Source of the DNA: an uncultured Opitutaceae bacterium
Lineage (GTDB): Bacteria > Verrucomicrobiota > Verrucomicrobiia > Opitutales > Opitutaceae
Direction: 5' to 3'
DNA: 16,614 nucleotides
NCBI GenBank assembly: GCA_937128785.1
Contig: CAKZMS010000040.1
Span: 1 to 16,614, forward strand
Shown: piece after piece, positions 11,527 to 14,490 of the stretch
How the letters are laid out: every line of letters begins with the position of its first letter
How positions within the stretch are numbered: the stretch's first letter is position 1
Position numbers and translations under genes: made by a program
The notes under the pieces: generated by a model
Told to the model about the DNA's origin: nothing
Database searches by the model: none
Seen by the model: only the letters and a program-made list of their open reading frames with translations

Positions 11527-12932
11527 AACAGCCCCTCCCTCAAAATGAACGCGGCTCGCTGTTAATTGCCGCGATGATTCTGACCCTCGCGATTTCGATC
11601 TCCCTCGTATCATTTCTCAAACTCGGGCAGACCAACCTCAACATCTCCAACCGGGCCTTTTACGCCAATGCGACCATGAATCTGGCGGAGTCGGGTTTGG
11701 AACACGCCATGTGGTCCATCGGCAAGGCGGTGGATGGAGACGCCTCTGCTTGGACCAACTGGACTACCTCGGGCAACGCCGCGTGGCGCAACTTCACCGG
11801 CTTCTCGTTTGATGCCAACAGCACCGGCAGCGTCAGGGTCTACGTGAGAAACTACAATCTCGCGGCTGCCCCCGTCATCGTTGCCCGCGCCACCATCACC
11901 CCAGCCACCGGCGCAGCCATTGAAAAATGGGTTATGGTGAGCCTGTTCCAGCGCTCACTTTTTGCCAACGGACTGGTGGCCAAGGATACCCTCACGTTCG
12001 CCGGTGGCAACGCTACCGTCGACAGCTATGACTCCCGCCTCGGGCCCTACAATGTAGCATTGGGTGGCGGCGATTATAACAAATACGATCGCGGCAGCGC
12101 AGGTAGTGCTTCGGTGATGGTCAGTAGCTTCTCGTTGAGCAATTCGTCAATTTACGGCAACGTCTCCATCGGCACTTCGGACTACACCGGTTTGAGTGTG
12201 GGGCCCAACGGGCTGGTCGGAGATTTTTCCACGTCCTCCGGCACGATTGACTACACCCGGGTGAACACCGATTTCACCACCAACTTCGATGACGCATCCG
12301 CTCCAACTACGGTGGGCTACAATATCGGAGCAATTAGCAGCGCAACCGTGCTCCCTCGAGGAGGAGACGTCCCGGCAGCGGATGGAACATATTACTACGA
12401 CGTCTCCAGTATCTCGCTCAGTGGTCCCGCTTCCCGTATCCTGTCGGTGGCGCCGGCGAACGACGTTGTTATCCGGATTACGGCTCCCAGTGGCGGTTCC
12501 GGCGTGAGTGTGACCGGTAACGCTTCAATCCAAGTGTTGGCCGGTTCGACGTTGGGAATGTATGCCGAATCCAATGTCTCGATTGCCGGACAAGGTATCG
12601 CCAACTCCAACGATCCCGCTGCTTTCCAGCTCTGGAGCACCCGGCCCGCGGGGGCCGCAGGTTCGCAAAGCATATCCGTAAGTGGCAACGGCCAGCTCAG
12701 TGCCGTCGTCTATGCGCCAAATGCCGATGTCACCATGAATGGGGGAGGCAGCAGTGGTTCCGTCTATGGCGCCGTCGTTGCTGACACCATATCGGTTACC
12801 GGTGGCAGCGACTTTCACTACGATGAAGCCCTGGCCGCCATGTCCGACGGCAGGCCTTTTGGCGTGTCGCTATGGTCTGAGCTCACGACTTCTGCCCAAC
12901 GTTCCACGTGGTCGTCGGTGCTGAGTTTCTGA
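11523..12932 (+). CDS. PilX-like pilus assembly protein with long Ser/Gly-rich beta domain
   Basis: The 469-aa product starts with a short leader MKQPLPQNERG, a hydrophobic segment (SLLIAAMILTLAISISLVSF), and an Asn/Glu helix (MNLAESGLEHAMW) typical of PilX N-terminal regions. Mature position 5 is Ala, not Glu. The long remainder is poor in Cys and rich in Ser, Gly, Thr, Asn and Val, with alternating hydrophobic strands and turns (VSVTGNASIQVLAG, VSIAGQGIAN, ISVSGNGQLSAVVYAP, ISVTGGSDFHYDEAL). The YAPNA...FHYDEAL ending resembles a domain found at the C-terminus of many PilX-like proteins. A beta-helix is likely from this pattern, but no catalytic residues are apparent. It probably acts at the pilus tip or in assembly; adhesion is possible. 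The ATG is fixed by the ATGA overlap. Confidence 0.8.
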   Translation: MKQPLPQNERGSLLIAAMILTLAISISLVSFLKLGQTNLNISNRAFYANATMNLAESGLEHAMWSIGKAVDGDASAWTNWTTSGNAAWRNFTGFSFDANSTGSVRVYVRNYNLAAAPVIVARATITPATGAAIEKWVMVSLFQRSLFANGLVAKDTLTFAGGNATVDSYDSRLGPYNVALGGGDYNKYDRGSAGSASVMVSSFSLSNSSIYGNVSIGTSDYTGLSVGPNGLVGDFSTSSGTIDYTRVNTDFTTNFDDASAPTTVGYNIGAISSATVLPRGGDVPAADGTYYYDVSSISLSGPASRILSVAPANDVVIRITAPSGGSGVSVTGNASIQVLAGSTLGMYAESNVSIAGQGIANSNDPAAFQLWSTRPAGAAGSQSISVSGNGQLSAVVYAPNADVTMNGGGSSGSVYGAVVADTISVTGGSDFHYDEALAAMSDGRPFGVSLWSELTTSAQRSTWSSVLSF

Positions 12933-12934
12933 TC

Positions 12935-12965
12935 CGGGTGTGAGCAGACCTCATCCCTCCACCCG
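12935..12965. terminator. Weak candidate hairpin between converging pilX-like gene and rnpB
   Basis: CGGGTG (12935-12940) pairs with CACCCG (12960-12965) around a 19-nt loop. It begins 3 nt past the stop of the pilX-like gene and lies just past the 3' end of rnpB. There is no T-run on either strand, so function as a terminator is uncertain. Confidence 0.25.
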
Positions 12966-13058
12966 AGCTTGGTTCCGGGGCCGATAAGCCGGATTCTGTT
13001 CCGCGCCCGAAGGCACTTCGACCGTCATTTATCTCAAGCCCACCCTAAGGGGGACCCG

Positions 13059-13098
13059 TCCTCCGAAGCTCGACGCCGAAGCGGCGAGCGAAGGGGGA
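13059..13098. repeat. Palindromic element copy A, inside rnpB near P18
   Basis: TCCTCC pairs with GGGGGA (13059-13064 with 13093-13098), then GAA faces GAA, then GCTCG pairs with CGAGC (13068-13072 with 13085-13089), closed by a GCCG/CGGC-containing loop. The arrangement is shared with copies B and C. On the rnpB strand it falls between the segment following P17 and the conserved GATAAATGAC, the place of helix P18/P19. Confidence 0.75.
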
Positions 13099-13225
13099 TG
13101 CGACATACCCGCGACTTAAGGCCGGGCCGGCCAGTCGCCTATTTTGCCTTGCACCGGAAGGGGTTTACCCTGCCACCGACGTCACCGTCGGCGCGGTGGG
13201 CTCTTACCCCACCTTTTCACCCTTA

Positions 13226-13261
13226 CCCTTCGAAGCTCGATCGAGATCGAGCGAAGTAGGG
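13226..13261. repeat. Palindromic element copy B, forming rnpB helix P12
   Basis: CCCT pairs with AGGG, then a T/T mismatch and a C-G pair, then GAA faces GAA, then GCTCGAT pairs with ATCGAGC around a CGAG loop. It sits exactly between the conserved ATACCGCC and GGTAAGGGTGAAA blocks, so it makes up P12. Its GCTCG...CGAGC core with flanking GAA is the same as in copy A. Confidence 0.75.
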
Positions 13262-13462
13262 CGGTATATTCTCTGTGGCACTATCCGTCGACCTGCCTTG
13301 ACGCAGGCCGCCCGTGCTTGCGGTGAAGCTCGCACGGCATCCTGCCCGATGGTGTCCGGACTTTCCTCTCCGGGAGTTTAACTTATCGGATTCAGCGTTA
13401 CCTGAATCTTGGGATCAAAGAACCCCGGAGCGACGATCAGGCCCCGGAACCAAGAGGACCAA

Positions 13463-13489
13463 ATTCTCAAACCCCACCCCACAAAGCAA
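13463..13489 (-). promoter_or_regulatory. Candidate rnpB promoter
   Basis: On the minus strand GAGAAT (13463-13468) may be a -10 box and TTGCTT (13484-13489) a -35 box, with a short 15-nt spacer. A start about 7-9 nt past the -10 would coincide with the 5' strand of P1 at 13454. The weak spacer keeps this tentative. Confidence 0.35.
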
Positions 13490-13501
13490 GCCTGCCAAAA
13501 C

Positions 13502-13584
13502 GGGGTCATGTCGTTAAAATGTTAATGGAGTCCTCCGAAGCCTTGGCGAAGGGGGACGGAATTACCATTTTCCGACATGACCCC
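13502..13584. repeat. 83-bp near-perfect hairpin element carrying palindromic copy C
   Basis: Terminal inverted repeats GGGGTCATGTCG and CGACATGACCCC (13502-13513, 13573-13584) continue inward as AAAATG/CATTTT and TAAT/ATTA with few mismatches. The centre (13530-13557) is GTCCTCC-GAA-GCC-TT-GGC-GAA-GGGGGAC, the third copy of the element seen in rnpB. No open frame of note is inside, and no clear target-site duplication flanks it (left CAAAAC, right TGCTCC). This is the build of a non-autonomous palindromic mobile element (REP- or MITE-like). The mobilising enzyme is not in the window. Confidence 0.8.
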
Positions 13585-13664
13585 TGCTCCCGCGCCCGTC
13601 GGCACCGCAGCGGAGTAGCAGGTAGGGCTGGACCGCTGGGCCAGCCGAACCGCGGAGTGGAGCA
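13585..13664. repeat. Second palindromic module abutting the 83-bp hairpin
   Basis: TGCTCC (13585-13590) pairs with GGAGCA (13659-13664). Inside, TCGGC (13599-13603) can pair with GCCGA (13644-13648), and GGCTGG with CCAGCC (13626-13631, 13641-13646). It starts at the base after the end of the previous element. The GTAGGGCTGGACCGCTGGG segment looks to me like a dispersed repeat of this bacterial group, from memory only. Confidence 0.5.
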
Positions 13665-13680
13665 CGGATCTCATCAACCA

Positions 13681-13780
13681 TCCGCCTCATACCATCAGCC
13701 TCGACTGAGAGGCAGGAGCCAGCCGAGCCGGAGCTCGGCGTTCCCAGCCCATTCAAAATCAAAAATCCGAGATCGAAAAT
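13681..13780. repeat. Remainder of the repeat island: GCCGAGC hairpin and AAAATC-type direct repeats
   Basis: A 7-bp hairpin GCCGAGC/GCTCGGC with a CGGA loop (13722-13739) is followed by an A/T-rich tract in which AAAATC recurs (about 13755-13780, for example CAAAATCAAAAATCC and GAAAATCC). No credible gene is here; frames open across it on both strands are driven by the palindromes. The tract ends 3 bases before the stop of the zinc-ribbon gene and may serve as its 3' end. Confidence 0.5.
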
Positions 13781-13782
13781 CC

Positions 13783-14490
13783 TCAGGACGATTCCCACCA
13801 GATGATCCGGCCACACTGGTCGCACCGCGCCAGTTCCTCCCCTTTGCGGGCGACACCTTCGGCTTCGCCTGAGACACGCAAATGACAACCGCCACACTTG
13901 CTGCCCTCGACGGCGACCACGGTGGGGAAGGTCCGCGAAGCTACCTGTTCGAACAACCGCAAGGGTTTGGCGTCCAATCCCCCTTTGGCCTCCTCGCAGG
14001 CGGTCTCCGCCGCAGCCAAATCGGATTTCAGATTCGCCTCCCGCTCATCGAGCACCTGCAGCCGGTCCTGATATTCCGCGATGTTGTCCTGGAGTTCCTT
14101 TTCCGCGGCCGCGAAGCGCTCCTTGGCCGCGTCGATCTCATACATGACCTCCAACTCCTGCTCTTCAAATTTGCTGACCTCCGCCTCGACGGTTTCGATC
14201 TCATGGCCCAAGGCCTGATACTCGTCGTTCTTTTTGACGAGCGACTGCTGGGTTTTGTATTTCGCCAACCGGTCTTCCGCACTGCCGATTTCCGTCTCCA
14301 GCAACTTCTTCTTGGTCTCCAGTTCCTGCCATTCGGATTTGGCCGCCTCGATGGCCGCCTTTTCCGCATCGATTTTCTGCTGCACGCGGGCCTTGTCTCC
14401 CGGCACCGCTTCCAGGTTCTGCACCAGCGAACGACGGGTCTGTTCGCGATCTTGGAGTATCAGGAGTGGCTCTATGGCAGGGTGTCGCAT
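13783..14490 (-). CDS. Coiled-coil C4-type zinc-ribbon protein (CT398 family)
   Basis: The 235-aa product has a long predicted coiled coil (about 12-175, heptad-like Glu/Lys/Ala/Leu sequence such as KKKLLETEIGSAEDRLAKYK) and a C-terminal zinc ribbon with four cysteines, C199-x2-C202 (KCGGCHLRV) and C223-x2-C226 (RCDQCGRI). This is the domain order of the C4 zinc-ribbon family typified by Chlamydia CT398. Cellular function is not settled; the Chlamydia protein has been linked to sigma-54 and type III secretion factors, but there is no such context here. It starts at ATG without a ribosome site, 22 nt after the Rrf2-type gene on the same strand, so the two are probably co-transcribed. The stop falls against the repeat island. 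Confidence 0.9.
   Translation of the reverse strand: MRHPAIEPLLILQDREQTRRSLVQNLEAVPGDKARVQQKIDAEKAAIEAAKSEWQELETKKKLLETEIGSAEDRLAKYKTQQSLVKKNDEYQALGHEIETVEAEVSKFEEQELEVMYEIDAAKERFAAAEKELQDNIAEYQDRLQVLDEREANLKSDLAAAETACEEAKGGLDAKPLRLFEQVASRTFPTVVAVEGSKCGGCHLRVSGEAEGVARKGEELARCDQCGRIIWWESS

Follow-up and report, generated by a model that had tools for sequence, protein, structure and literature searches.

In the family Opitutaceae, short dispersed REP-like palindromes appear to have replaced the P12 arm of RNase P RNA repeatedly, a reading that we hold at a probability of about 0.72, and the P12 of the window (the whole 16,614-nucleotide stretch analysed, from an uncultured member of the family) is probably one such replacement. 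In most of the genomes concerned, two of the four palindrome types found in P12 (I and III) also occur as dispersed copies that match the P12 arms in sequence, and P12 changes at one location on ribozyme cores that are otherwise nearly unchanged. Spreading DNA palindromes thereby seem repeatedly to reshape a tolerant region of the essential tRNA-cutting ribozyme RNase P. Accretion models propose that structured RNAs grow via the insertion of independent hairpins, but where the DNA of a new helix comes from can rarely be seen. In the present case, repeats that look like donors occur alongside the altered helix within the same genomes, on near-identical ribozyme backgrounds and with more than one donor family; because donor repeats and altered P12 occur together in this way, the origin of a peripheral helix and the tolerance of P12 become testable in close strains.

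The RNase P RNA gene of the window

The single RNA gene above the Rfam threshold in the window is rnpB, located on the minus strand at 12969-13449; it is a bacterial type A RNase P RNA that matches RF00010 over the full model (1-367) with 227.2 bits against a gathering score of 100. Three palindromic copies, here designated A, B and C, are present with the plan described in the original prediction, at 13059-13098, 13228-13260 and 13530-13557, and alignment to the rnpB model agrees with that prediction in placing copy B in P12. The P12 arm (13228-13260, minus strand) reads CCUAC-UUC-GCUCGAUCUCGAUCGAGC-UUC-GAAG as RNA, with its TTC...TTC core at 13232-13255, and has the architecture of the type I dispersed palindrome. 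Copy A (13059-13098, minus strand) reads UCCCCC-UUC-GCUCGCCGCUUCGGCGUCGAGC-UUC-GGAGGA with a 3x3 UUC/UUC loop and had been assigned to P18/P19; this is the wrong helix, the hairpin lying instead between P15 and P18 in the joint J15/18. The hairpin taken as P18 (13036-13057, minus strand), which adjoins the conserved GAGAUAAAUG, is assigned by position only, as is P19 at ~13001-13021. Copies A and B have 13 of 14 nt in common, and A and C share GTCCTCCGAAGC exactly.

Since rnpB is on the minus strand, the loops in its RNA are UUC/UUC. The GAA facing GAA that was first read from the letters is a correct description of the plus strand, but in the RNA it is UUC that faces UUC, so that the proposed rigid module of tandem sheared G-A pairs is lost from the ribozyme and the sheared-pair idea could hold only for the opposite DNA strand or an antisense transcript.

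Turnover of P12 in the family

Of 200 family genomes, 178 have an RF00010 match; 157 of these rnpBs were fetched (21 were left out) and 156 parsed, L077 having Ns in P12. P12 varies from 13 to 85 nt among the 156. Classes were assigned by our own regular expressions (type I, TTCGC..GCTTCG or its complement; type II, TTCGAC..GCTC; type III, GTCGC..GCTATGG; type IV, AT-rich and ATCTCAAATTTGAGAT-like), which yield 74 short P12s (22 nt or less), 46 longer unclassed ones, and 12 of type II, 10 each of types I and IV and 4 of type III; in all, 36 of 156 have a P12 of one of the four palindrome types. One P12 (L141) contains a B-like arm together with a canonical copy.

The class of P12 changes between rnpBs that are otherwise closely similar. 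There are 122 pairs whose cores (each of more than 250 nt, lengths within 25) are identical at 92% or more; P12 class differs in 51 of them, and the palindrome type itself differs between rnpBs whose cores are 93-98% identical. Examples are L121 and L144 (cores 98.3% identical, P12 of 17 nt versus type II of 33 nt), L142 and L151 (96.9%, type II versus type I) and L153 and L164 (95.5%, short versus type III). The eight genomes of the window's genus include one each of types I, II and III, four short P12s and one unclassed; there the core nearest to that of the window, L067 (94.6%), has a different P12 of 31 nt, followed by L065 (93.9%) with a P12 of 17 nt. A quick tree of the cores (298 columns, 17 of the 156 rows being under half filled because the J15/18 cut failed) requires 53 changes of P12 class for six classes, a figure whose exact value is not leaned on; on the 36 typed rows its starred branches force at least three changes of type I and at least four of type III.

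The main rival explanation is convergence: a 3x3 loop, UUC/UUC or GUC/UAU, closed by GC would be a favourable RNA fold reached independently in P12, in J15/18 and in intergenic hairpins, with no mobile DNA entering rnpB. The differences in class between nearly identical rnpBs argue against this, as does the near absence of the motifs from shuffled P12s. When base pairs were permuted within each P12 with the fold kept, the type I motif, present in 9 of 82 long P12s, occurred at a mean of 0.0075 (maximum 1) in 2000 shuffles, and types II and III, present in 9 and 4 of the 82, at 0.003 and 0.006 in structure-preserving shuffles; the motif-bearing P12 rows are not independent events, because some are close relatives. 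On these grounds, and on those given below, we consider convergence unlikely.

The base of P10/P11 around P12 also occurs in two forms, ACCGC...GGTAAGGGTGAAA and GTAGCC...GGTCATAGTGAAA (GGTGATAGTGAAA in some), as noted in rnpBs L062 and L067 and also in L049, L068, L070, L160, L212 and L217. Both forms exist within the window's genus, and the difference looks like a coordinated change. One family genome (G057) has two rnpB matches of near-equal score (C39 and C51), either a duplication or assembly redundancy.

Dispersed copies in the same genomes

The window's own genome (G000) is a 3.64-Mb draft of 774 contigs that is 82% complete. In it the pattern CGAAGCTCN{0,24}GAGCGAAG occurs three times, copies A and B included, against none in the control; the looser CCGAAGCN{0,30}GCGAAG gives 51 matches against 19 in the reversed control, and the short-loop form CCGAAGCNNNNGCGAAG gives 18 against 0, which bears out the dispersed palindrome family that had been predicted. 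The short-loop form is found 79 times against 5 in control in the eight genomes of the genus and at least once in 162 of 200 family genomes, many of them with 1-3 matches and near the control level. Dispersed type I copies have GC-rich outer arms that vary between copies, GAA (TTC) on each side and a short inner stem. The type I pattern CGAAGCTC..GAGCGAAG yields 62 matches in 50 genomes against 5 in controls, 6 of the 62 (from five genomes) being inside rnpB. Some type I evidence counts against replacement: genomes with a type I P12 have from 0 to 18 CCGAAGCNNNNGCGAAG matches each, P12 being counted where it matches, with as few as 0 or 1 in G103 and G074, and the GCTC inner stem of copy B is found in only one copy of its own genome outside rnpB. 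The arms of B, CCTAC/GAAG, were not seen among the dispersed copies read. One type I palindrome (L094, ~501-517) lies, by eye, apparently within a DNA-methylase-like coding frame.

Type III, GCCGTCGC..GCTATGGC, has 6 matches in G004, 8 in G158, 22 in G087 and 2 in G099, one in each being the rnpB P12, with controls of 0-1 per genome; dispersal is not seen in G099, because its other match is non-palindromic. With their flanks the dispersed copies are mostly CCGCC-GTCGC-inner-GCTAT-GGCG, as are the P12 copies, and the 16 fixed type III bases, which P12 and the dispersed copies have in common within these genomes, are hard to reconcile with convergence on an RNA fold. A copy outside rnpB in G208 carries the inner stem of the P12 of G099, a genome of the same genus, with 3 loop bases different within GTCGC..GCTAT.

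Types II and IV behave otherwise. The rnpB form of type II, TTCGACTCGC..GCTCAG, has 10 matches in 50 genomes, 6 of which are the P12 itself, with at most one outside rnpB in any genome; it is not dispersed, and this counts against replacement. A simpler type II relative, TCGACNNGCTCRGG, is dispersed (33 against 3 in G104, 40 against 9 in G082), although not in every genome. Of type IV the exact 17-mer has few copies outside rnpB, with two seen in G028 and one in G162, and this too counts against replacement. Full dispersal of types II and IV was thus only partly borne out by the genome matches.

These distributions bear on a second alternative, in which whole P12 arms are inherited vertically or recombined between species by allele swapping and the repeats elsewhere are coincidental. 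The type III P12s of G087, G099 and G158, from three genera, have the TCGGC inner stem in common, the B-type P12 with CTAC/GAAG arms occurs both in G000 and in G083 of another genus, and the type II P12s, which are alike across genera, are not dispersed, all of which such swapping would account for; the repetition of the motifs within the same genome and the very different types within one genus it leaves unexplained. As the whole explanation it seems distinctly improbable, but swapping of arms may act alongside replacement, so that the odds given to the explanations are not mutually exclusive.

The reverse direction, in which rnpB is the donor and its P12 and J15/18 hairpins are copied out and dispersed, had been raised in the original prediction. 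The hairpins of P12 and J15/18 are indeed slightly more alike within a genome than across genomes (mean best match 6.9 versus 6.2, attained in 0 of 5000 permutations), a similarity that still includes base composition and relatedness and is not used as proof. Most copies, and several unrelated palindrome types, lie outside rnpB. Genomes with a short P12 also have type III (7 matches in G096, 11 in G217, 7 in G022), the window's own genome has five type III matches and none in rnpB, and the inner stems of the dispersed type III copies read are mostly shorter than those of P12. It is therefore very improbable that rnpB was the source.

Copy A and the J15/18 joint

Copy A probably has a different history from P12. 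Of the 138 family rnpBs in which J15/18 was parsed (out of 157), 128 are predicted to have two hairpins there and 10 to have one; two are likewise predicted in all 14 parsed rnpBs (out of 19) that come from other families in the order. The region has a median length of 56 nt in the family versus 34 nt in the other families. Since the joint holds hairpins through the order, copy A is most likely an inherited hairpin that is longer in the host family, and not a separate insertion. The expectation that the inserts would be confined to some relatives accordingly holds for the P12 palindromes and is not supported for copy A, and the idea of a palindrome accepted twice into the ribozyme finds no support in A and is too narrow for P12, whose class has changed many times across the family.

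The loop pairs of J15/18 vary widely, with a 3x3 loop in 26 of 155 regions and of 18 kinds, a diversity that favours convergence on such loops as RNA features. Type I motifs are nonetheless found in 8 of 155 regions as against 0.034 in shuffles, and in the J15/18 hairpin of L150 (from G087) a palindrome is nested at the tip of another. Copy A may happen to have the type I build or may have acquired it earlier, and may thus have been touched by the same process as P12.

Copy C and a Y1 transposase element

Copy C (13530-13557, plus strand), GTCCTCC-GAA-GCCTTGGC-GAA-GGGGGAC, is a canonical type I palindrome. It exists outside the gene as had been predicted, but it is not a stand-alone hairpin, being the tip of a longer MITE-like palindrome of 83 bp (13502-13584, no strand assigned) with the ends GGGGTCATGTCG...CGACATGACCCC. 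The same 12-bp ends, GGGGTCATGTCG/CGACATGACCCC, bound a Y1-transposase element elsewhere in the genome (L250, 915-1923), which is 1009 bp end to end with a 309-aa ORF, so that 13502-13584 has terminal inverted repeats common to a transposase-bearing element. Because the ends are identical, it is most simply a MITE of the L250 element whose tip is a type I palindrome. Four more copies (L025, L028, L029 and L085) are, like C, embedded in longer palindromes whose ends are of the GGGGTC type. An additional GGGGTCAGGTCG end is seen at L250 2623.

The 13502-13584 element resembles the TIRYT transposons and TIR repeats (Di Nocera 2013, PMC3733652), in that the first 8 bases of the window and L250 ends fit GGGGWSAS at 7 of 8 and L250 encodes a Y1 transposase; it differs in having a type I palindrome at the tip. 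The own genome contains five Y1_Tnp matches, one of them within the 309-aa ORF of L250. When the ends of these five genes were scanned with a loose pattern, no type I palindrome seen there was convincing, in a genome that is 82% complete and in which L251 and L252 are at contig ends; the result is a point against replacement.

A proposed mechanism of replacement

Each unit combines outer arms rich in GC with a 3x3 loop, for example UUC/UUC or GUC/UAU, and a variable inner stem that has GC at its start and end. We propose that such palindromes are mobile and that one would enter a hairpin arm already present by being copied as single-stranded DNA in hairpin form. A Y1/HUH-type transposase might do the copying, or the template might switch between hairpins whose CCGCC/GGCGG-like arms match. 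The event would usually be an exchange of the whole arm rather than a simple insertion; no target duplication was seen at P12, where replacement looks wholesale, and these observations count against the proposal. P12 is directed away from the catalytic core, and its tip is not known to make essential contacts. Because of this orientation, tolerance would be limited only to an intact P12 base and a closed stem, selection retaining just those events that leave the conserved base (ACCGC...GGTAAGGGTGAAA) and closed stem, and exchanges within these limits would be neutral. The elements occur at other hairpin tips too, as in copy C, within a MITE that has a transposase-bearing relative, and in the nested J15/18 hairpin of L150.

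Relation to known palindromic repeats

Dispersed palindromes inside an RNase P RNA gene have a precedent in the RPE of Rickettsia, palindromes of 105-146 bp inserted in the M1 RNA and tmRNA genes (PMC2229807, citing Ogata 2002). Compared by description, the units here differ in that they are of several unrelated types and occupy the same P12 arm many times across a family. They are also smaller, the window units being ~24-40 bp and outside the RPE size range.

Tandem repeats termed STRR were reported in cyanobacterial rnpB (Vioque 1997), and they are reportedly dispersed in the genome and located in P12. The likeness is that of repetitive sequences within rnpB; STRR are tandem repeats, whereas here whole hairpins are involved, and the direct repeats listed in 12600-14000 are spaced at least 78 nt apart. 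P12 is sometimes dispensable in cyanobacteria, according to PMC2858038, which cites Vioque 1997.

Another parallel is with the GTAG REPs, 20-40 bp palindromes that are mostly intergenic and are abundant in Opitutus terrae, with many inside genes there; one family is inserted within small GC palindromes (Di Nocera 2013, PMC3733652). A 20-40 bp palindrome in many copies (18 in the window's genome, control 0) is likewise found here, but where the GTAG tag would be placed the window copies have GAAG. The terminal unpaired GTAG tag is absent: GAAG is found on each side of A, B and C, and CTACGG in 1 of 20 matches in the own genome. The loose scan of the five Y1 genes of this 82% complete draft found none with convincing type I palindromes at its ends. 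The term "RNase P" is absent from the main text of PMC3733652. A search of open-licence papers found neither a description of repeated P12 replacement by palindromes nor an occurrence of six repeat strings. It appears to be new that one helix turns over repeatedly, through palindromes of several types, in a single family.

Distribution outside the family and at tRNA 3' ends

In a named-genome collection TTCGC..GCTWYG preceding GGTAAGGGTGAAA was found at 42 loci, of which 36 have an rnpB flank and 6 do not (by eye). They comprise 21 Bradyrhizobium records, a count that does not give the share of Bradyrhizobium with the motif because the scan selects for it, together with scattered Alphaproteobacteria, Acidobacteria, Geobacteraceae, a deltaproteobacterium, an Akkermansia-labelled MAG and a few others. 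In the P12 of Bradyrhizobium the UUC/UUC loop is kept while the arms covary (by eye), a pattern that fits either an old insertion or convergence. Since Bradyrhizobium and scattered groups have this loop with covarying arms, UUC/UUC may be an RNA feature reached by convergence.

The dispersed form CCTTCGCNNNNGCTWYGG gives a mixed result in 17 of these outside genomes: 14 have a match (P12 may count) and 3 have none, two have matches at or below control, and only 6 exceed control by at least 5, as convergence would lead one to expect. Against convergence, the repeat is abundant in some of them, with 29 matches versus 0 in G221, an Acidobacteria MAG, and 20 versus 3 in G233. It is conceivable, although we would put it at somewhat less than even odds, that P12 is a general landing pad in bacteria for palindromes propagated as single strands, with a CCTTCGC....GCTTCGG class in the P12 of Bradyrhizobium, Acidobacteria and Geobacteraceae, that mobile hairpins are a main source of the peripheral helices of this universal ribozyme, and that tRNA 3' ends are a second stable-RNA target.

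Of 17 own-genome repeat loci scanned, three have a copy only 2 nt away from a tRNA gene (Glu, Ser and Arg) at its 3' end, and in G087 and G083 a copy is ~3 nt away from the gene for tRNA-Arg and tRNA-Lys, respectively; these are a second association of the palindromes with stable-RNA genes. Type I or III palindromes at 2-3 nt from tRNA 3' ends are seen at L023 1424-1517, L027 1501-1609, L091 501-595, L308 101-199 and L325 26-122. The outer arm of the tRNA-adjoining palindromes mostly pairs, by eye, with the encoded CCA.
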